This document shows positions 4,306 through 52,155 of a stretch of DNA of 64,000 bases, piece by piece (positions within the stretch are counted from its first letter, which is position 1; every line of letters starts with the position of its first letter). Position numbers and translations under genes: made by a program. Origin of the DNA: an uncultured bacterium. Its GTDB lineage: Bacteria; Cyanobacteriota; Vampirovibrionia; Gastranaerophilales; Gastranaerophilaceae. The notes under the pieces were generated by a model. That model worked only from the letters and a program-made list of their open reading frames with translations, had not been told where the DNA came from and ran no database searches. The stretch spans positions 1 through 64,000 of the forward strand of contig CASFPN010000043.1 of the NCBI GenBank assembly GCA_949296425.1, given 5' to 3'.

Positions 4306-5204
4306 TTATTCAAGCAGATACTTAGCCGAACAACCTGCACCTGCAGCTTCCGCAAAAGTTGCCGATTGTGACTTACCTATATCTTTAGAGCAACCTGACG
4401 CTCCGGCTGAAGGATCATCATATCCTTGAGTACCTTCAGCACCTGCAGGCAGCATCTTGTTCTCCCATAACTGTGCTCCAAAAAGGTCTTTCCCGACCAT
4501 ATTAGGTCCTTTTTTATATCCGTTAACATCTACTATAATCCAGGCGCCAAACACTCCACCCATATAAATGACAGAGCCGTCAGCCATTAAGATCATCTGT
4601 GTGGAAAGATTGTAAAGAGCAAGTTTGCCTGCTTTATAATAAATTTTATGTCCATTAACATGCGCAACAGAGGTTTTTGTCGGGTAGCCCAAAGGGTCAT
4701 ACCCCTGGTTATGTCCCCAAATATAAGTATCCTCATAAGCAACACATGAGGGAGGATAAGTATTACCATGACCAGGAGAACAATGATCTAAAACTTTTAG
4801 TTTTGAAATAAATGCCGAAACAAATTCAGGATTATAGTATCCTCTGTCAAGATCATAGTTTGGGTTACCATTACTACAGATATTTGGATTATACCTGTTA
4901 TGAGTTGCACAAACATCAATACCATCAGCTTTAACAGCATTAAAAGCAGCATTAACAACAGCATAAGATTTTTTCCATCTTGCAATATTTTCTCTGTCTT
5001 CTATTTTTGAAATTATAACAGGCATAGTTATCGCTGCAACAACACCAATTATGCCCAGAGTGATTAAAACCTCTGCTAAAGTGAACGCACATTTGCGTTG
5101 ACAGTTCAACAGGGCTATGTGCGTAGCCCGCTCGGGTAAACTAAATCGTTCACTAGTCAGGCTTTCGGGGGGGGGGCAATTCTCAGCTTCTTAATTTTTT
5201 TCAT
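4306..5204 (-). CDS. Pilin A: prepilin-like protein with out-of-frame leader (C10 run)
   Basis: Translation should start at the ATG at 5204, preceded by AGGAG. The leader MKKIKKLRIAPPP then runs into ten C (5167-5176) and in the current frame stops after 15 codons. One extra C restores an open frame through a linker (ESLTSERFSLPERATHIALL) into the prepilin signal CAFTLAEVLITLGIIG and the mature domain, ending at 4306. The cleavage site has Ala, not Gly, before Phe; Glu5 is present. The C-terminal domain holds a VDVNG-x-KKGPN-x-VGKD motif shared by all six pilins here, and ends GCSAKYLLE. The part fully in one frame begins at a TTG at 5109 that lacks a convincing ribosome site. It could be phase-variable, slippage-expressed, or a homopolymer miscall. 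Confidence 0.82.
5164..5188 (+). repeat. G10 module, copy 1
   Basis: TTC, then ten G (5167-5176), then CAATTCTCAGCT on the + strand. It lies inside the leader of the minus-strand pilin A and is identical to the copies at 23638, 43222 and 47578. Confidence 0.95.
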
Positions 5205-12058: not shown

Positions 12059-12931
12059 ATGGCTTTAAACTTTCAAGAATTGGTTTTTAATTTACAAAAA
12101 TTTTGGTCTGATTACGGATGTATTATTCAACAGCCTTATGATATAGAAAAAGGCGCATCAACTATGAACCCTGCTACATTTTTAAGAGCCTTGGGGCCGG
12201 AACCTTGGAATACTGCAATGATTGAACCATGCAGACGTCCGACTGATGCAAGATATGGCGAAAATCCGAATCGTTTGGGACATTACTTTCAGTTTCAGGT
12301 TATTCTAAAACCTTCTCCTGATAACGCTCAGGAACTTTATCTCAGAAGTTTGGAAGCTATGGGGATTGACCTTAAAGAACATGATGTAAGATTTGTGGAA
12401 GACAATTGGGAATCTCCGACGTTAGGCGCGGCCGGTGTGGGCTGGGAAGTTTGGCTTGACGGTATGGAAATTACGCAATTTACTTATTTTCAACAAGTCG
12501 GCGGTGTAGAGGTTAAACCTGTGGCTCTTGAATTGACTTACGGGCTTGAAAGAATTGCCATGTATCTTCAAAATAAAGAATCAGTCTATGATATTATGTG
12601 GAATGATACATTAAAATACGGTGACATTTATCTTCAAAACGAAATTGAACAGTCTAAATATAACTTTGAAGTCAGTGATGCAAAGGCTTTATTTACAATG
12701 TTTGATTTATATCAAAAAGAAGTTGATAATTGTGTTAATGCAAAACTTGTTTTGCCGGCTTATGATTATGTGTTGAAATGCTCCCATACATTTAACCTTT
12801 TGGATGCAAGAGGAGTAATCAGCAAAGATGAAAGAATTAACTTTATTAACAGGGTCAGAACAATGGCTTCTGCTGTTGCAAGACTGTATGTAGCACAAAG
12901 AGAAGAACTGGGATTCCCTCTTTGTAAATAA
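12059..12931 (+). CDS. glyQ: Glycyl-tRNA synthetase alpha subunit
   Basis: This is the catalytic class II subunit of the heterotetrameric (alpha2beta2) glycyl-tRNA synthetase, charging tRNA-Gly in the cytoplasm. The hallmark sequence [20 protein letters not shown], then [20 protein letters not shown] and [14 protein letters not shown], is intact, and the length (290 residues) is typical. I choose the ATG at 12059, since family members begin close to FQ-LxxLQKFW; an in-frame TTG lies five codons upstream. The ribosome site is weak (TTGGA). The beta subunit glyS is not in the window, which is unusual because glyQ and glyS are commonly adjacent. Confidence 0.95.
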
Positions 12932-12950
12932 CTACCGGGGACTAACACCT

Positions 12951-12982
12951 CACCCCGACTCTCTCCTTCGGGAGAGGGAGAA
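12951..12982 (+). repeat. Palindromic intergenic repeat with TTCG tetraloop
   Basis: CTCTCC-TTCG-GGAGAG (12961-12976) after CCTCACCCCGA, between glyQ and the first permease. A related hairpin is embedded in the pilin B linker at 16336-16351. Confidence 0.6.
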
Positions 12983-12995
12983 ATGGAGAAAATAA

Positions 12996-14588
12996 ATGGC
13001 TGAAAAATTTCACCGCGCGACATTTACTCGCAATTTTTTGAAAACTATAACAAGGATTAAAAATCCTGATGAAATGTTGGCTGAAGCAAAAGCTGAAGGT
13101 TTGGAAAAAACTCTCGGCGTGTGGGATTTAATTATACTTGGTGTAGGTGCAATTATAGGTTCAGGAATTTTTGCGGTTGTCGGTATAGCTGCGGCAGGAA
13201 GTTCTGACGGTTCAATAATCGGGGCAGGACCCGGACTTATTGTATCAATGGTAATTGCTGCTATAGCTTGTATATTTTCGGCTTTATGTTATTCCGAATT
13301 CGCAACTATGATACCTGTTGCGGGTGGTGCTTATACTTATACCTTTGCAACGTTGGGTGAATTTGCCGCCTGGATGGTAGGCTGGGTTTTGATGCTCGAA
13401 TATGCAATTGGTTTTATTGCTGTTGCCTGCGCCTGGTCAAACCATTTTGTGCAGTTTATGAGCGGGTTTGAAAAAGTTTTACCGGCTTGGCTCGCAAATC
13501 CTCCTGTCTGGCTTGTTAATGATGTGTTTTCAGCTACTAAAGTTGCCGCTGATGATCCTAATATTCATTTGCCTATGTTATTTGGCATGCCTATTAGTAT
13601 AAATTTACCTGCTATTGTAATTGTTCTGTTAATAACAATGATACTTGTCAGGGGTACAAAAGATTCGGCTAAAATGGCGGGATTAATGGTATTTATAAAA
13701 CTTGCAGTAATTGCACTGTTTGTATTTGCCGGAATATTTTTTGTAAAACCCGAAAATTGGACACCATTTGCCCCGAACGGAGCTGCAGGAATTTTTGCCG
13801 GTGCATTTTTGATATTTTTTGCATATATCGGCTTTGATGCTCTTGCAACTGCTGCGGAAGAATGCAAAAATCCACAAAAAGATTTGCCCGTTGGTATAAT
13901 AGGTTCATTAATTATAACAACAATTGTCTATGTTTCTGTTGCACTAGTTTTAACCGGTCTGCAGGATACAAGTTCTGCTGTGCCTCTTGCTTTTTTGAAA
14001 GCTCCTATGGCATATTGTATGTCGATGCTGAATATGAACTGGGCTGCAGGATTAATTTCAATAGGTTCGCTTGCGGGATTGACGTCAGTTTTGCTTGTAT
14101 TGGAAATGGCTGCAACTAGAATTTTATATGCAATGAGCAGAGATCATTTTATATCACAGAGATTCCAAAAGCTTCATCCGAAGTTTAAAACTCCGGCGCT
14201 TTTGACCTGGACTGTCGGAATTTTGGCTGTTGTAGGAATTTTAACTCTTAATCTGGATGTGGCAGCAGAACTTTGCAATTACGGAACATTTACGTCTTTC
14301 ATAATTGTTTGTGTTGCCGTTTTAATTTTAAGAAAGACCGATCCAGAAAGACCAAGACCGTTCAAGGTGCCGTTTTCTCCAGTCACACCTGCCCTTGGTA
14401 TAATTATATGCGGCGGTTTAATGGTGTATAAATCAATGCAGCCTTCCGGTTCTGCTTTACTTTTCCCTGTATGGCTCGGGGTGGGTGCGATAATTTATTT
14501 GTTATATGGCTTTGTAAGAAACAGACAAAATGAAAACAGAATTCATAACCAAAAAGTAGAACTTAAAAAACAAGAAATGATGAAATAA
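12996..14588 (+). CDS. APC-family amino acid permease (cationic amino acid transporter-like), copy 1
   Basis: 530 residues with 12 or more membrane segments. The N-terminal motif LIILGVGAIIGSGIFAVVGIAA is the APC-superfamily substrate/gating region, followed by CYSEFATMIPVAGGAYTYTFATLGE and FIGFDALATAAEE-type signatures of the CAT subgroup. It should import an amino acid, perhaps cationic or branched; specificity is not readable. The cytoplasmic C-terminal tail is rich in Lys, Glu and Gln. Its stop overlaps the start of the next permease (TAATG), so the pair is translationally coupled and probably arose by tandem duplication. The upstream 30 nt carry a palindromic repeat. Confidence 0.9.
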   Translation: MAEKFHRATFTRNFLKTITRIKNPDEMLAEAKAEGLEKTLGVWDLIILGVGAIIGSGIFAVVGIAAAGSSDGSIIGAGPGLIVSMVIAAIACIFSALCYSEFATMIPVAGGAYTYTFATLGEFAAWMVGWVLMLEYAIGFIAVACAWSNHFVQFMSGFEKVLPAWLANPPVWLVNDVFSATKVAADDPNIHLPMLFGMPISINLPAIVIVLLITMILVRGTKDSAKMAGLMVFIKLAVIALFVFAGIFFVKPENWTPFAPNGAAGIFAGAFLIFFAYIGFDALATAAEECKNPQKDLPVGIIGSLIITTIVYVSVALVLTGLQDTSSAVPLAFLKAPMAYCMSMLNMNWAAGLISIGSLAGLTSVLLVLEMAATRILYAMSRDHFISQRFQKLHPKFKTPALLTWTVGILAVVGILTLNLDVAAELCNYGTFTSFIIVCVAVLILRKTDPERPRPFKVPFSPVTPALGIIICGGLMVYKSMQPSGSALLFPVWLGVGAIIYLLYGFVRNRQNENRIHNQKVELKKQEMMK

Positions 14589-16150
14589 TGGAATTAAAAT
14601 CAATAATAAATAATGCATTAAAGAAAAAAAGCCCCGATGAATTAATAGCTGTAAGTAAAAAATCAGAGCTTAAAAAAACGCTGAATGTTTTTGATTTGAT
14701 AGTTCTGGGAATTGGTGCCGTTGTCGGAACTGGAATTTTTACTATTATCGGTTCGGCAATTCAGGGAGGCCCTGAAAGCGTTGGTGCAGGCCCGGCAATT
14801 GTAATTTCTATGATTTTGGCAGTTGTAGCATGCGTTTTTTCTGCATTATGTTACAGTGAAATTGCTGCTATGATACCTGTTGCCGGAAGTGCTTATACAT
14901 ATACTTACGCAACAATGGGTGAATTTATGGCCTGGATGGTAGGCTGGATTTTAATGCTTGAGTATGCAATAGGAAATATTACGGTTGCTTGTGCTTGGAC
15001 CGGTTATTTTGTCCAGTTCTTAAAAGGATTTAAGCATATTCTGCCTGATTTTGTCGTGAATTTTCCTTTGTGGCTCAGAGCGGATTATCGTTATATGTTT
15101 ACATACTGTGATAAATACGGGCTTGATCCGCATACACAAATGCCGTTTATTTTTGATAAAATTCCATTTGCCATAAATCTTCCGGCTATGGTTATTGTTT
15201 TGCTTCTAACTATTTTGCTTGTAAAAGGTGTAAAAGAATCTACAAGATTTGCAAGTATTATGGTCGGTGTAAATATGTTTATGATAATTTCGTTTATTGT
15301 AGTCGGAGCTTTTTATGTTAAGCCTGAAAACTGGACTCCGTTTGCGCCTAATGGTTTTGAAGGTATTTTTATGGGCGCGTTTTTGATATTTTTTGCATAT
15401 ATCGGATTTGATGCTATTTCTACCACTGCAGAGGAAACTGAAAATCCGCAGAGAGATTTGCCTATTGCGATTTTAGGAACTCTTGTTATTTGTACAATTT
15501 TATATATATGTGTTGCACTTGTTCTGACAGGAAATGTTCCTCTGGGGCAAATTGATATTCAGGCGCCTATCGCTCATGCTATGCGAGCTATGGGAAAAGA
15601 CTGGTTTGCAGGATTAATTTCTATCGGCGCTTTATGTGCTTTAACATCTGTAATTTTGATATATCAACTTGGAACAACAAGAATTTTATACGCAATGAGC
15701 CGTGACAGATTTTTGCCGAAATCTTTGCGTTTAATTCACAAAAAATACAGAACTCCGCATGTCCTGACATGGATTTCCGGTATAATTGTAATTTTGTGTA
15801 CATTTTTTATGGATTTGAGCATATCTGCAGAACTTTGTAATTTCGGAACGTTTACATCTTTTATTATAATTTGTATTGCGGTTTTGATTTTACGTAAAAC
15901 AGATCCTGAAAGACCAAGACCTTTTAAAGTCCCGTTTTCTCCGTTGTTCCCTGTTTTGGGTATATTAACATGCGGCGGTTTGATGGTTTATTCTATGAAG
16001 TTTTTAACAACTTCATCATTATATTTCCCTTTGTGGTTGTTGATTGGGCTGGCAATTTATGCAGGTTACGGATATAAACAAAAAAGACTTGAAGAAAAAT
16101 TAAAAAAGCAAAGACGAATAAAGCAGAAAGTTGAATTTCAAGCAAAATAA
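14588..16150 (+). CDS. APC-family amino acid permease (cationic amino acid transporter-like), copy 2
   Basis: 520 residues, a clear paralogue of the preceding gene: VLGIGAVVGTGIFTIIGSAI, CYSEIAAMIPVAGSAYTYTYATMGE and FAYIGFDAISTTAEETENPQRDLP align along the whole length. The ATG overlaps the upstream stop by one base (TAATG). It differs in a longer periplasmic loop (RADYRYMFTYCDKYGLDPHT), so substrate range may have diverged. Both ends in basic cytoplasmic tails. The likely -10 region for the downstream pilin B lies right at its stop codon. Confidence 0.9.
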   Translation: MELKSIINNALKKKSPDELIAVSKKSELKKTLNVFDLIVLGIGAVVGTGIFTIIGSAIQGGPESVGAGPAIVISMILAVVACVFSALCYSEIAAMIPVAGSAYTYTYATMGEFMAWMVGWILMLEYAIGNITVACAWTGYFVQFLKGFKHILPDFVVNFPLWLRADYRYMFTYCDKYGLDPHTQMPFIFDKIPFAINLPAMVIVLLLTILLVKGVKESTRFASIMVGVNMFMIISFIVVGAFYVKPENWTPFAPNGFEGIFMGAFLIFFAYIGFDAISTTAEETENPQRDLPIAILGTLVICTILYICVALVLTGNVPLGQIDIQAPIAHAMRAMGKDWFAGLISIGALCALTSVILIYQLGTTRILYAMSRDRFLPKSLRLIHKKYRTPHVLTWISGIIVILCTFFMDLSISAELCNFGTFTSFIIICIAVLILRKTDPERPRPFKVPFSPLFPVLGILTCGGLMVYSMKFLTTSSLYFPLWLLIGLAIYAGYGYKQKRLEEKLKKQRRIKQKVEFQAK

Positions 16151-16192
16151 TGTTAAAATAAGTTTGGAAATATTTGATAAGGAGTTGAATTT

Positions 16193-17223
16193 ATGGAAAA
16201 GTTTATTAAGAATCGGAGCTTCGGGGGGGGGGCACTCCTGAGCTAGGTAGAAGTCAAGAGGTCAAGAAGTCAAGCTATTTAAATCTCGTAAGATACTATG
16301 TCACTAAGGCACTAAGAAGTATCGTAACAATTTTTCCTCTCTCGGGAGAGGAACTAAGGAAGAGGGGTGCTACGCACGTAGCTTTGCCGAACTTTCAATG
16401 TAAATACGGGTTCACCCTTGCTGAAGTCTTAATCACCCTCGGTATAATAGGTGTTGTTGCGGCTATGACGTTATCGACAGTAATATCTAAAATACAGGAT
16501 AAGCAAAATATTGCCAAATGGAAAAAGGAATACTCTGTAGTAAGCAACGCATTTAATGAAGTCGTGGCTGACGGAGTGCAGATATGCGAAGCATATAGCA
16601 CTAATGGCAAATGCATTAGTGTAGATAATAAGTATATTGGCGTCCCAACTGTAGAATTTTACCGTGCTATGATGTCAAAGTTAAAAGTAATAGACTATTG
16701 CGGCTTAAAAGTTTCGGATAGTAATAAACGTTGTGACTATTATAATTCAGATTGGTACAATAAATATGCAAAATACAAATGGTCCGGAGTTGCAAATATA
16801 TATAGCCGTTATAAAGCTTTGGGAGTAAGAGAAGAATCTAATCCTGGTTCTTATTCTCCTTATGGAATAAGCGCGTATAATTTCGGAAATCTTGCCTTAC
16901 TTTTGTCAGACGGAGCAGTTGTCTATTTTGGTGATTTTCATGGGGGTCCCTGGATAGTTGTAGATGTGAATAATTTTCAAACAGGTCCTAATGAATTCGG
17001 ACGTGATGTGTTTGTAATAAAACTGTTTTCTAATATAAAAACAGACAAGCATTATCTTAGTCCAATGGGTGCAGAAGGAACATTTAACAAAGAGAAAAAC
17101 GGAGATGTTTGTGAATGTTCTCCTGATAAAGGTGTGAAAGGAGATTCTTCTTTAGCGGGGAATAATGGGGAAGGAGAAGTTGTTTCGGGTATCTGTTGTT
17201 CCGCTAAATATTTACTGAAGTAG
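16193..17223 (+). CDS. Pilin B: prepilin-like protein with out-of-frame leader (G10 run, inverted module)
   Basis: The ATG at 16193 follows AAGGAG. The leader MEKFIKNRSFGGG meets ten G (16223-16232) and stops at a TAG after 17 codons. With eleven G the frame is open across a ~150-nt linker into YGFTLAEVLITLGIIGVV and on to 17223. The linker contains palindromes (16336-16351, 16369-16382) and encodes GATHVALPNFQ, matching RATHIALLNCQ in pilin A. The mature domain has VDVNNFQTGPNEFGRDVF and ends CCSAKYLLK like pilin A. Unlike the minus-strand pilins, the module here is reversed relative to the gene, so the run encodes Gly rather than Pro. A likely promoter is TTGAAT-17-TAAAAT across the end of the permease gene. 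Confidence 0.82.
16220..16244 (+). repeat. G10 module, copy 2 (inverted relative to gene)
   Basis: TTC, ten G (16223-16232), CACTCCTGAGCT. This is a slightly diverged copy of the module, still with G on the + strand although its gene is also on the + strand. Confidence 0.9.
16336..16382 (+). repeat. Two palindromes inside pilin B linker
   Basis: CCTCTC-TCGG-GAGAGG (16336-16351) and GCTAC-GCAC-GTAGC (16369-16382). The second corresponds to GGGCTA-CGCACA-TAGCCC in the pilin A linker. Confidence 0.7.
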
Positions 17224-17337
17224 CAGCTGTGGTAAATAATTATTAAAAAATCAACATGGCTCTTGTTTTAATTCATTGAGCCCGTATAATAAGTGTATAA
17301 AGTGTACTTATTAAGGTTATTTTGAAAAGGAGTCCGG

Positions 17338-20589: not shown

Positions 20590-21705
20590 ATGGCAGAGAA
20601 TTCTTTAAACAGCAAGTTTAATATTATAGCATTTTTAAAGAAAGCCGTTGCAATCGGCGCTTCGGATATTCATCTTCAGGTTGATGAACATCCTGCAATA
20701 CGTATTGACGGCAGAATTACAAAAGTTGACATGCCGCTTTTGACCGAAAATGATATTGCAATTGCGTATGATATTTTGCTTCCGACACATTTTAAAGGTA
20801 AAGTTAATGCTGTATTTGACTTGGATTTTGCTTATGAAATTCGTGGGGTGTCCCGTTTTAGGGTTAATTTAAGCCGTCAACTCGGTAAAAGTGCTCTTGT
20901 TATCAGAACAATACCTTATAATATCAAACGTATATCGGATTTGATGCTGCCTGAATCTATTGAACAATTTGCGACACTAAATAACGGTCTTGTACTTATA
21001 ACAGGTCCGACAGGCTCCGGTAAATCTACAACAATTGCATCTTTAATTGATTATGTTAATATAAATTACCCTAAACACATAATTACAATTGAGGATCCTG
21101 TTGAATTTATTTTTTCCAATAAAAAATCAATTGTTTCACAAAGACAAGTTTTGATTGATACACCTTCTTTTCCGGACGGTATTAAATACGCTTTAAGACA
21201 AGACCCTGATGTTATATTTATCGGTGAAATAAGGGATAAAGAAACTGTTGTTGCAGCATTGAAAGCCGCTGAAACTGGGCACCTTGTTTTTGCAACAATA
21301 CACACAAATGATGCAATTCAGACTGTCAACAGAATTGTTAATATGTATGAACCGTCTGACAGAGATTTTGTAAGATCCCAACTGGCTCAGGTATTGCGCG
21401 GAACAGTTTCTCAAAAATTAATTCCTGTTTCAAACGGTACCGGTAGACGTCCAGCTTGTGAAGTTCTTGTTGTAACGCCTACGGTAAAAGATTTTATCGA
21501 AAAAGACAAGCTGAGCGATATTTATGAACTTGTTAAAAAAGGTTCTTTCAACAATATGATTACTATGAATGCTTCTTTATACAGATTGTATGAACAGGAC
21601 TTAATATCTGAAGATGTTGCAATGTCTTATTCAGATAACAAAAATGAATTGCAGCAGATGTTTAGAGGAGTATTCCACGGTACATTCGGGCCTTCCGGGA
21701 AATAA
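20590..21705 (+). CDS. pilT: PilT-like type IV pilus retraction ATPase
   Basis: 371 residues of the GspE/PilT ATPase family, hexameric motors at the inner-membrane base of type IV pili. Walker A is GPTGSGKST (139-147), the Asp box is ITIEDPVEF, Walker B is DVIFIGEIRDKET and the His box is TGHLVFATIHTNDA. The AIRNLIREGK motif of classical PilT is not obvious at the C-terminus, which instead reads YELVKKGSFNNMITM; this is close to the PilT/PilU LIxxGxxxGM-type region. It is the only pilus-motor gene in the window, so PilB, PilC and the secretin must lie elsewhere. GAGAGGA precedes the ATG. Confidence 0.88.
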   Translation: MAENSLNSKFNIIAFLKKAVAIGASDIHLQVDEHPAIRIDGRITKVDMPLLTENDIAIAYDILLPTHFKGKVNAVFDLDFAYEIRGVSRFRVNLSRQLGKSALVIRTIPYNIKRISDLMLPESIEQFATLNNGLVLITGPTGSGKSTTIASLIDYVNINYPKHIITIEDPVEFIFSNKKSIVSQRQVLIDTPSFPDGIKYALRQDPDVIFIGEIRDKETVVAALKAAETGHLVFATIHTNDAIQTVNRIVNMYEPSDRDFVRSQLAQVLRGTVSQKLIPVSNGTGRRPACEVLVVTPTVKDFIEKDKLSDIYELVKKGSFNNMITMNASLYRLYEQDLISEDVAMSYSDNKNELQQMFRGVFHGTFGPSGK

Positions 21706-22884: not shown

Positions 22885-23678
22885 TTACCATGGATAGTCT
22901 TTACTAATGACCCATCCGTCTTTTTGAATCAGTGCTCCGCAGCTTTGATAAATTGTAGCGGCACTGCCATCTTTTTTACATAATTCAAGCAAATCATCCC
23001 TGCTTTTTTCCACTCCGGGCATTACCAGCTTGCCTGAAGTATTAATATGAAGTAAAAATACATCTTTACCTATTATATTGGGTCCTTTTTTGCCGTTGAC
23101 ATCAACATATATGGAAGGGGAGGCTCCGGTGCCGTCATTGTTGTAGTCAATTTTATAAAAAATAAAACTTCCGTTTGCCAAAAGCATAGTATAATAATCT
23201 GTTCCTGTTAAGCTGGTTGGAGCAGTCTGTTCTCCGCTCATTGTTTTATATGTTGGGAAATATCCGGTGCTTACCGGATATATGTAGCCGAAGACTTTTG
23301 TTTTCTTTAAATTGCCTGTAACATATTTTTCAGCATCGGCAATTTTTTGTTCGTTCGTATAATTAACCATAGCTTTGTTGTCAATATTTTTAGCCCACTC
23401 AGGATCTTCAATCATTCCCTGTGACATTTCAATAGATTGAAAAATAAGGTTGAAAGTTGTTTTTAATTGATTAGCAAGTACGATTTTTTGATGTTTCGCA
23501 ATAAGTGCCGGCATAGTCATTGCCGCTGCAACCCCTATAATTCCGAGAGTGATTAAGACTTCCGCAATGGTAAACGCACATTTGATTTGCTGCCTAAACT
23601 CATTTTTATCTTCTAAAAAGTAAGCCCTATCTACCTTTTCGGGGGGGGGGCAATTCTCAGCTTCTTAATCTTTTTCAT
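22885..23678 (-). CDS. Pilin C: prepilin-like protein with out-of-frame leader (C10 run)
   Basis: The ATG at 23678 follows AGAGGAG. The leader MKKIKKLRIAPPPKR stops at TAG just after the ten-C run (23641-23650). With eleven C the frame stays open through EKVDRAYFLEDKNEFRQQIK into the signal CAFTIAEVLITLGIIGVAA and on to 22885. Ala replaces Gly at the cleavage position. The mature domain has YVDVNGKKGPNIIGKDVF and ends DGWVISKDYPW; similar DYPW-type endings identify the decayed copies at 39.4 and 56.3 kb. In one frame only the part from an internal ATG at 23520, inside the signal helix, is available, which could not be processed. The gene is convergent with recO and its downstream gene. Confidence 0.82.
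23638..23662 (+). repeat. G10 module, copy 3
   Basis: TTC, ten G (23641-23650), CAATTCTCAGCT on the + strand, inside the leader of pilin C. Confidence 0.95.
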
Positions 23679-35846: not shown

Positions 35847-36607
35847 ATGAAAAAATTATTTGCTAATGCTTTTCGGGGGGGGGGCATTCTCAGCTCCCTG
35901 TAAGGTTTTTAAATGGATTTACCCTTGCCGAGGTATTGATTACTCTTGGTGTTATCGGTGTTGTTGCGGCCATGACTTTGCCTGTATTGATTAGTAAATA
36001 CCGTGACAGACAGTATGTGACAGGATTGAAAAAAGCAGTTGCAATTTTAGATAATGCGTACAGGCTTGCGATTTTTGAAAACGGCGGTAGTAATGATTTT
36101 GGTTATCTGGAAGCAGAATATGTTCCGCTCCCGCCAGAGGAAGGCTCAGGGGTTTATAATAAAAACGGTAATTACAATTCAGACATGTTGTTCAAGGCAA
36201 TGAAAAGCCATCTCAATGTTATAAAAGATTGTGGAAAAAACAGTGAGGACGGATGTTTCCCTGAAACATTGAAGTCTCCGTTCCGTGATAAAACTTGGAG
36301 TATTGTCCATAATCAAGGGAATTCAAGACGTTTTTTTATATTGAGTGACGGCATGAGTATCGGAATTACTCCGGCTCTTGCTTATATTGATGTAAACGGA
36401 TTAAAAGGACCGAATACTTTAGGTATTGATGTATTTCAGATTGCTTTAAATGAAAATGGTATCGGGTGGTATGATGACGGCAGTAATGGAACTCTGGAAT
36501 GTTATACAAATGAGTTTACCTGCTCGTCCTGGGTAATGGTTAATGACAACATTGATTATATTCATTGTGATGATTTGAATTGGAAAACTAAAACAAAGTG
36601 CAAATAA
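35847..36607 (+). CDS. Pilin D: prepilin-like protein with out-of-frame leader (G10 run, inverted module)
   Basis: The ATG at 35847 follows AAGGAGGG, the best ribosome site among the pilins. The leader MKKLFANAFRGGGILSSL reads through ten G (35875-35884) to a TAA at 35901. With eleven G it becomes RGGGHSQLPVRFLNGFTLAEV, fully open to 36607. Gly precedes Phe at the cleavage site and Glu5 is present. The body contains AYIDVNGLKGPNTLGIDVF. The single-frame part starts only inside the signal helix, so no processed product could come from it. As in pilin B the module is reversed relative to the gene. The gene lies upstream of gap on the same strand but with its own signals. Confidence 0.82.
35872..35895 (+). 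repeat. G10 module, copy 4 (inverted relative to gene)
   Basis: TTC, ten G (35875-35884), CATTCTCAGCT: one A shorter than the consensus after the run, G on the + strand. Confidence 0.93.
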
Positions 36608-42366: not shown

Positions 42367-43262
42367 TTAAGGTAAGCATTCAAAATATGTTTTTGTGCTG
42401 TCATACGGGCATTCATTTTTCAAAGCATAATAAGAACAGCCAATGCCGTTTGCTTTCTGGCTTGAGGTCAAATTACACGGGTTTCCGGCTCTTTCTTTAA
42501 CGTGTTCTTTGCCTTCATCGTATTCTATATTATCAAGTTCTTCATCGGACAATATTTCCGGCTTATTAGTTGCAGCTGCCAGAGCATCATTTTTAGAATT
42601 TATCTTAAAAACAAATATGTCATGTCCTAATTTATTAGGTTTTTTGGAACCGTTTGTATCTATACCTACATACACTTTTAATTCGATTATACTAAAGTTA
42701 ATATAACTTCCATCCGGCATAGCGTAAGTATTAAATATAGGATCACCAATTCCTGCAAGATCATTAACAGTTACAACTTGCTTATTATTATATGTTCTTA
42801 TTGTTTCATTATTCCTTCTATCAATAAAATTATCCGTCACTTTCCAGGGGGCGTTTATTCGTTTATTTATCAAACTCTTAAACAAAATCTCATAACATTC
42901 GTCAGCGTGATCATACGGCATACCGCTGCCGACATCATACGGATAGTATGCACAATACTGTGCAAAATTGTCAATTCCTGAATCAGCCTTTGCTTTTAAA
43001 ATAGCCTGAGAAACAACAGATATTGATTTTTTGTATTGAGTTTCAAGTGCTTTGTTTTGGAATTTATGAATTAATGACGGCATTGTCATAGCAGCAACAA
43101 CACCTATTATGCCGAGCGTGATTAACACCTCTGCTAAAGTGAACGCACATTTGTGTTGACAGTTCAACAGGGCTATGTGTGTAGTCCGCTCTGGTAAACT
43201 AAATCGTTCACTAGTCAGGCTTTCGGGGGGGGGGCAATTCTCAGCTTCTTAATCTTTTTCAT
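42367..43262 (-). CDS. Pilin E: prepilin-like protein with out-of-frame leader (C10 run)
   Basis: The ATG at 43262 follows AGAGGAG. The leader MKKIKKLRIAPPPKA stops in the current frame after the ten-C run (43225-43234). With eleven C it continues as ESLTSERFSLPERTTHIALL into CAFTLAEVLITLGIIG and on to 42367. Leader and linker are nearly identical to pilin A at DNA level, while the mature parts differ (here VGIDTNGSKKPNKLGHDIF and a Cys-rich end CPYDSTKTYFECLP). This points to recent duplication or gene conversion of the 5' part only. Ala precedes Phe at the cleavage site. The promoter lies across the stop of the PfkB gene. Confidence 0.82.
43222..43246 (+). repeat. G10 module, copy 5
   Basis: TTC, ten G (43225-43234), CAATTCTCAGCT on the + strand. 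Confidence 0.95.
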
Positions 43263-51662: not shown

Positions 51663-52155
51663 ATTTATCAGAAAACCCGTAAAAAAATTTTTTTGCTAAT
51701 AAAAAATAATTATTTAATAAGTTAGCTCAAAAAATTTTTTATGCTGTTAACGCACGCCTTTATTTCTTTTTACGCATTAAAAACCGGTATTAGCGGGTTC
51801 ATATCCGTCTATTAAAATTTTAGAAAGAATTGCTGCGGTTTTAAATGTTGAATGTAAAAGAACACATGGTTTGATTTCTTGTTACAGATGGTTTGAGTAT
51901 TTCGGGTAATAAAGTTGCGGCAGTCGTCACCAAATCCTTAGATCAATAATGTCGAATTATTAAATTATATCTATGGAGTGTTAATATTGACTTATACATT
52001 AAATAGCAAGAAATATAAAGAAATGTTAAGAAATTTTAAAATAGCTGAAATACAGTTATAATGTCAGTATGGTATGGTATGGTAGAAGTGTGCCGTAGCA
52101 ATTTTTTTTTTTCATTTGTTTTTATATATATGTAGGTAAAATCATATGAAAGGAA
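51663..52155. other. Gene-poor stretch with a regulator remnant
   Basis: About 490 nt of AT-rich sequence. It contains the XRE-like fragment at 51781-51909, a possible 24-codon frame starting at a TTG near 51987 that I do not trust, and a run of GTATG repeats near 52068-52083. I see no intact gene or strong terminator. Confidence 0.5.
51781..51909 (+). pseudogene. Fragment of an XRE-family helix-turn-helix regulator
   Basis: The frame VLAGSYPSIKILERIAAVLN, then VECKRTHGL, is typical of the third helix and end of XRE/Cro-type HTH domains (..PSIKxLExIAxALNVx..). An in-frame TAA lies directly upstream and there is no N-terminal half, so this is a remnant. Confidence 0.6.

Follow-up and report, generated by a model that had tools for sequence, protein, structure and literature searches.

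The pilin B locus poses a simple question: how can a pilin be made from a gene whose start codon and body lie in different reading frames, and what keeps the long, palindrome-containing stretch between them open? The locus (16193-17223, plus strand) lies in a window of 64,000 nt from contig CASFPN010000043.1 (GCA_949296425.1) of an uncultured gut bacterium, part of a 2.0-Mb genome (G000) in 46 contigs, which contains 97 matches to PF07963, the prepilin motif. A Shine-Dalgarno (SD) sequence, AAGGAG (16179-16184), precedes an ATG that opens a ten-codon leader start, MEKFIKNRSF (16193-16222), followed by a tract of 10 G (G10, 16223-16232). This tract has one base too few to join the leader with the pilin, and the leader frame yields the peptide MEKFIKNRSFGGGALLS, which terminates at TAG (16244-16246), that is, an OFF state. 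The original prediction that the frame joining a corrected leader to pilin B is open only after adding one base (+1) is borne out in silico, since 11 G give a 343-aa protein running through the linker (16233-16404) and the cleavage/methylation motif GFTLAEVLITLGIIGVVAAMT to the end at 17223, while with 9 G the frame terminates at TGA. The pilin itself (16405-17223) is a type IV prepilin, with a GFxxxE motif, a hydrophobic helix, and scores above cut-off for both TIGR02532 (24.5 bits, cut-off 16.3) and PF07963 (25.5, cut-off 21.2). At about 72 aa, the joined leader is not short and positively charged, which weakens only the claim that pilin B is a typical prepilin, leader length being variable within the family. 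An Rfam scan of 12900-17300 gave no matches.

As stop counts show, linkers are translated in frame with the pilin. In G000, the pilin frame contains a single stop in about 2865 codons of linker, versus 267 and 198 stops in the other two, and 53 of 54 linkers are stop-free, as compared with 6.3 expected to be open upon shuffling. The same is seen in G007, G001, and G004, which belong to the same genus, and in G002 (Lapin-012__bin75, CANQMP), with respectively 4, 2, 0, and 0 stops in the pilin frame versus 106 and 145, 43 and 60, 9 and 20, and 23 and 60 in the other frames. Stop-free linkers in these four genomes amount to 40/41, 12/13, 9/9, and 14/14, where shuffling predicts 4.8, 1.3, 3.5, and 2.1. 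Openness therefore holds in relatives, where interrupted linkers were to be looked for, and it can be upheld that the leader has taken up repeats while selection held the joining frame open. Purifying selection on the amino acid sequence, which had also been anticipated, was not found: the dN/dS of linkers is 0.71 in G000 and 0.73 in G007, within the range of wrong-frame controls, and that of the mature pilin start is 0.15-0.16. Since wrong-frame controls give similar ratios, dN/dS is uninformative as a coding test and the stop counts are decisive. It is thus openness that is selected, and strictly kept, while the amino acid sequence of the linker is nearly free. In G155 (E08__bin45) and G156 (BRZ_BN__bin58), leaders of up to approximately 200 aa of repeat-like sequence are open throughout.

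Translation must start at the ATG that precedes the tract in many members of the family. An ATG with an SD lies before the tract in 138 of the 139 tract pilins with an assigned start; in 96 of 194 tract pilins, the stretch from tract to helix is free of ATG, GTG, and TTG. The linkers RNISRSK and NLAAPYK, for instance, offer no alternative common start. Could the pilins nevertheless begin at an ATG or TTG by the signal helix, the tract leader being an unrelated or regulatory mini-ORF? Some linkers do hold typical prepilin starts (MKHHYKNKK-like), and pilin B has an inner TTG (16384), but only in the pilin frame are linkers free of stops all the way back to the tract, and internal start codons are ruled out for the half of the loci that have none after the tract. 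We consider this reading very improbable.

Both palindromes expected in the linker of pilin B are present. The first, CCTCTCTCGGGAGAGG (CCTCTC-TCGG-GAGAGG, 16336-16351), is, as proposed, of the same family as the intergenic hairpin at 12961. Palindromes of this type (CTCTC..GGGAGAG) are found in 26 places in the genome and are read in two frames; 21 are in pilin leaders, a count that includes a few leaders truncated by the end of a contig ahead of the pilin, and five are elsewhere. The second, GCTACGCACGTAGC (GCTACG-CA-CGTAGC, 16369-16382), is internal to a leader module, GATHVALPNFQ(CKY), at 16366-16404. The notion of a general mobile element does not fit this one, as 33 of the 34 genome copies of its module, GCTACGCACGTAG, are in pilin leaders, counted in the same way. 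In the loci examined, 24 of 29 copies upstream of pilins are read as ATHV and five in another frame, as CYARRS. In pilin A, the linker ends with RATHIALLNCQ at the same place as GATHVALPNFQ in pilin B, a match that had been noticed correctly. This is not the dispersal of REP-like elements, which is intergenic and involves any gene family; the palindromes are mainly pilin-leader modules. Rickettsia-type palindromic elements are likewise palindromic repeats absorbed in frame within coding genes, but those described here are almost wholly in pilin leaders that processing should remove, and the same module is used in two frames. In type IV pili, prepilin peptidase cleaves off all residues ahead of the F of GFTLAE, and this would account for the tolerance of any open insert: judging from type IV pilus biology, any in-frame, stop-free repeat could be absorbed and then removed with the leader. 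A module FTLAE-GATHVALPN..R-A-AFTLAE occurs at the same place in several species (L131, L133, L236, L252, L407, and 16366-16404 in the window), and some leaders carry tandem copies 59-60 nt apart, as though the beginning of the pilin helix had been copied to either side of the module.

The main point, which was absent from the original prediction, is the homopolymer gate itself, present in dozens of pilins per genome and one base short. The window contains six G/C tracts of at least 8 nt (with 18 overlapping G8 matches versus 0.27 expected in a shuffled window), and all six are 10 nt long, are flanked by an SD-preceded ATG on one side and a pilin on the other, and need +1. Apart from pilin B, these gate pilin A (4306-5204, minus strand, ATG 5204, C10 5167-5176) and the pilins at 22885-23678 (minus, ATG 23678, C10 23641-23650), 35847-36607 (plus, ATG 35847, G10 35875-35884, with a linker that is merely HSQLPVRFLN), 42367-43262 (minus, ATG 43262, C10 43225-43234), and 46756-47618 (minus, ATG 47618, C10 47581-47590). 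The window also encodes, alongside these pilins, a PilT-like ATPase of the T2SSE family (20590-21705), and its sole A/T homopolymer of at least 9 nt is a T11 at 52102-52112.

Genome-wide, G000 has about 90 G/C tracts of at least 9 nt (190 overlapping G9 matches). A tract lies within approximately 330 nt upstream of at least 57 pilins, 49 of the 57 tracts being 10 nt long, and 41 of the 53 tract pilins with an assigned start combine 10 nt with a need for +1, starts being assigned by rule (SD plus ATG) so that some exceptions are possibly mis-assigned. In G007 (8 contigs, 97 pilins), 52 of 55 tracts have length 10 and 49 of 54 need +1, as do, at length 10, 14 of 16 loci in G001 and 15 of 16 in G004. 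Length 10 accounts for 86-95% of tract pilins in G000 and its relatives, the share of pilins with a tract being biased in G001, G004, and G002, which were sampled around tract matches (≥9). G and C tracts are similar, with 98 G versus 37 C loci that are 10 nt long and need +1. The nearest named relatives are gut MAGs labeled Candidatus Gastranaerophilales. Among 80 loci from named MAGs, a few of them shared with the above genomes, +1 is needed at 16 of the 17 that have both a ten-base tract and an assigned start. More widely, 114 of the 146 genomes in the order contain ten-G tracts; family f1 has up to hundreds of matches per genome, and most genomes from other families have few or none. Within the family of G000 itself, several genera (g15 and g26) have hardly any of these tracts; the gate was either lost there or never acquired, which helps dating. 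The JAIRZW01 records (L291, L296), although labeled Heliobacteriaceae, carry Gastranaerophilales-type pilins and are probably mislabeled. Viral contigs contain just two distant pilins and, when searched for the leader, no copies of it.

Because paralogues are related, the loci are not independent, and we therefore clustered their contexts. Upon ungapped greedy clustering at 60% identity in six genomes, a need for +1 is the majority state in 52 of 72 clusters (P = 1.8e-11 versus one third), and at 80% identity in 93 of 124. This supersedes a gapped single-linkage clustering (70%, four genomes) in which contexts were chained into 12 clusters, nine of them needing +1 (P = 0.004). The identical deficit results from three different combinations of 5' and 3' codon phases of the flanks (G000, G007, G001, and G004). 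Three near-identical AYTLSEIIIVML pilin leaders in G000 (L100, L101, and L102, on C14, C8, and C16) differ by the loss of CA beside the tract and by G10 or G11, and need 0, +1, and +2. Gating is also seen in a non-pilin protein of 333 aa, MGIEKLVTSLPQLKSLELI-GGGG-KLAGGVLKTAKQ..., with a G10 that needs +1 (L218, G000:C16:100900-102900, minus strand).

A second clade, represented by G155 and G156, has nine-base tracts, 11 of 18 and 9 of 17 loci, respectively, being 9 nt long and needing +1. Since this clade also mostly needs +1, what is conserved is being one base short rather than tract length. In G156, four 10-nt loci are in frame (ON) beside the G9 loci that need +1, which argues against a systematic under-call, whereby tracts would truly be one base longer, all pilins in frame, and the short-read consensus one base short. 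The named relatives are MAGs with contig names of short-read assemblers, and in Bifidobacterium an annotated G11 was mostly G12 in cells (PMC9187656), but other tracts in the same assemblies were called at 11-15, and control G11 and C11 templates retained the right majority length, approximately 94% for C11 (PMC9187656). We therefore regard such an error as improbable.

How, then, would the missing base be supplied? On the strength of these sequence patterns we lean, with some reserve, toward a phase-variable set of type IV pilins, very large in number and gated by tracts, most of which are OFF for want of one base and whose processed leader tolerates any open insert. As in contingency loci, the homopolymer is in the 5' coding region of a surface-structure gene, and its length sets the frame (G10 OFF and G11 ON in silico; G9 OFF and G10 ON in G156). 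The gate would most likely be such a locus at the DNA level, with replication slippage from 10 to 11 (9 to 10 in the other clade) turning one pilin ON, and reverse slippage turning it OFF. A given cell would express no more than a few, if any, of the approximately 60 gated pilins, and the population consensus would read OFF. The one-short bias might come from slippage adding bases at G10 or below and removing them above, with tracts at equilibrium and brief ON excursions. Slippage biased toward insertion at shorter and deletion at longer tracts is reported for Campylobacter, and possibly Neisseria (PMC4085013).

Several observations favor phase variation. G tracts and C tracts behave in the same way, which DNA slippage would predict, and a precedent exists in Bifidobacterium pili (PMC9187656). 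In G002, pilin tracts are 10-14 long, with mixed frames and some pilins ON. Tracts of 9-19 G are also found there within non-pilin transferase- or polysaccharide-like genes (L238, G002:C4:57000-76900; L244), as in classical phase-variable genomes, and these, together with the variable pilin tracts, point the same way. Loss of mismatch repair was ruled out as the cause of the variability in G002, a MutS1 match above cut-off being present in all 12 genomes tested. Conversely, the presence of MutS1 may damp slippage and thus counts against phase variation, as does the uniformity of tracts: whereas the spread of lengths is broad in G002, it is near-constant at 10 in G000, G001, G004, and G007, with about 0-10% ON, unlike in classical phase-variable genomes. 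For comparison, tract lengths in C. jejuni were G8 257, G9 214, G10 431, G11 77, and G12 9 (PMC4965091). Moreover, ON clusters are no commoner than those in the other off-frame (15 versus 16 of 124 at 80% clustering), which also speaks against phase variation and in favor of recoding at the RNA level.

In the latter case, the G10/C10 (or G9) tract would be a programmed slip site, where a base added by transcriptional slippage, or a -1 slip of the ribosome along the homopolymer, yields a fixed fraction of full pilin per locus from unchanged DNA. Slip site and frame offset are indeed conserved: tract length and deficit are near-invariant across species despite differing leaders, linkers, and flank phases, the deficit is still +1 when the tract is 9 rather than 10, and a need for +1 is far more frequent than a need for +2. 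The leader-frame stop comes early, a median of 2-4 codons past the tract, and the presence of MutS fits too. However, RNA polymerase or the ribosome should favor one base, whereas G and C tracts are alike, and the mixed frames of the 10-14-long pilin tracts in G002 are also at odds with recoding. No stimulatory structure was seen next to the tract of pilin B (z 0.96 and -0.17); z is -0.88 and -1.33 beside tracts at other loci, and -5.2 in pilin A, but with repeat hairpins. To our knowledge, the characterized G/C-tract gates in surface genes all operate at the DNA level. As a serious though less likely alternative, a whole paralogous pilin family, with dozens of genes per genome and in many species, might use programmed one-base recoding with DNA length constant, which would be a genome-wide, gene-family-specific homopolymer recoding for surface fibers.

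Tract gating as such is already known. In Neisseria pilC, a G/C homopolymer in the 5' coding region sets the ON/OFF frame. Poly-G contingency loci of Campylobacter do the same for surface-structure genes, with widely spread lengths (PMC4965091, PMC4085013). The gate there is found in a few unrelated genes and not, as here, in a paralogous pilin repertoire. The closest published analogue is the G-tract slippage switch of sortase pili in Bifidobacterium (B. breve bbr_0113 and bbr_1889), also gut commensals, in which a G10-G12 tract inside the first pilus ORF splits two ORFs at its annotated length, the second ORF has no active start, and fusion requires a length change (PMC9187656). It concerns one or two loci per genome, in contrast to the dozens of type IV pilin loci described here, which also differ by the use of both G and C tracts, a deficit that is uniform across species, and repeat-filled leaders. 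Transcriptional slippage and programmed frameshifting in IS elements similarly join frames at a homopolymeric slip site with a conserved offset, but these reports deal with A/T runs or an IS3-family group (PMC1088944, PMC6211511), whereas we see G or C runs with no base preference and no stimulatory structure. In the literature on Gastranaerophilales/Melainabacteria, we found no report of pilin gates.

Standard annotation would split or mis-start gated pilins, hiding the gate. If confirmed, the same deficit at dozens of loci in many species would provide a clean natural set for testing DNA versus RNA slippage, and the system would illustrate how repeats collect in a cleaved leader when selection acts on openness alone. 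The gated pilins look like a bank of silent surface fibers, each switched on by one extra base, and with at least 57 of 97 pilins gated in 2 Mb, the number of surface proteins behind such tracts would be very large for the small genome of a gut relative of cyanobacteria.
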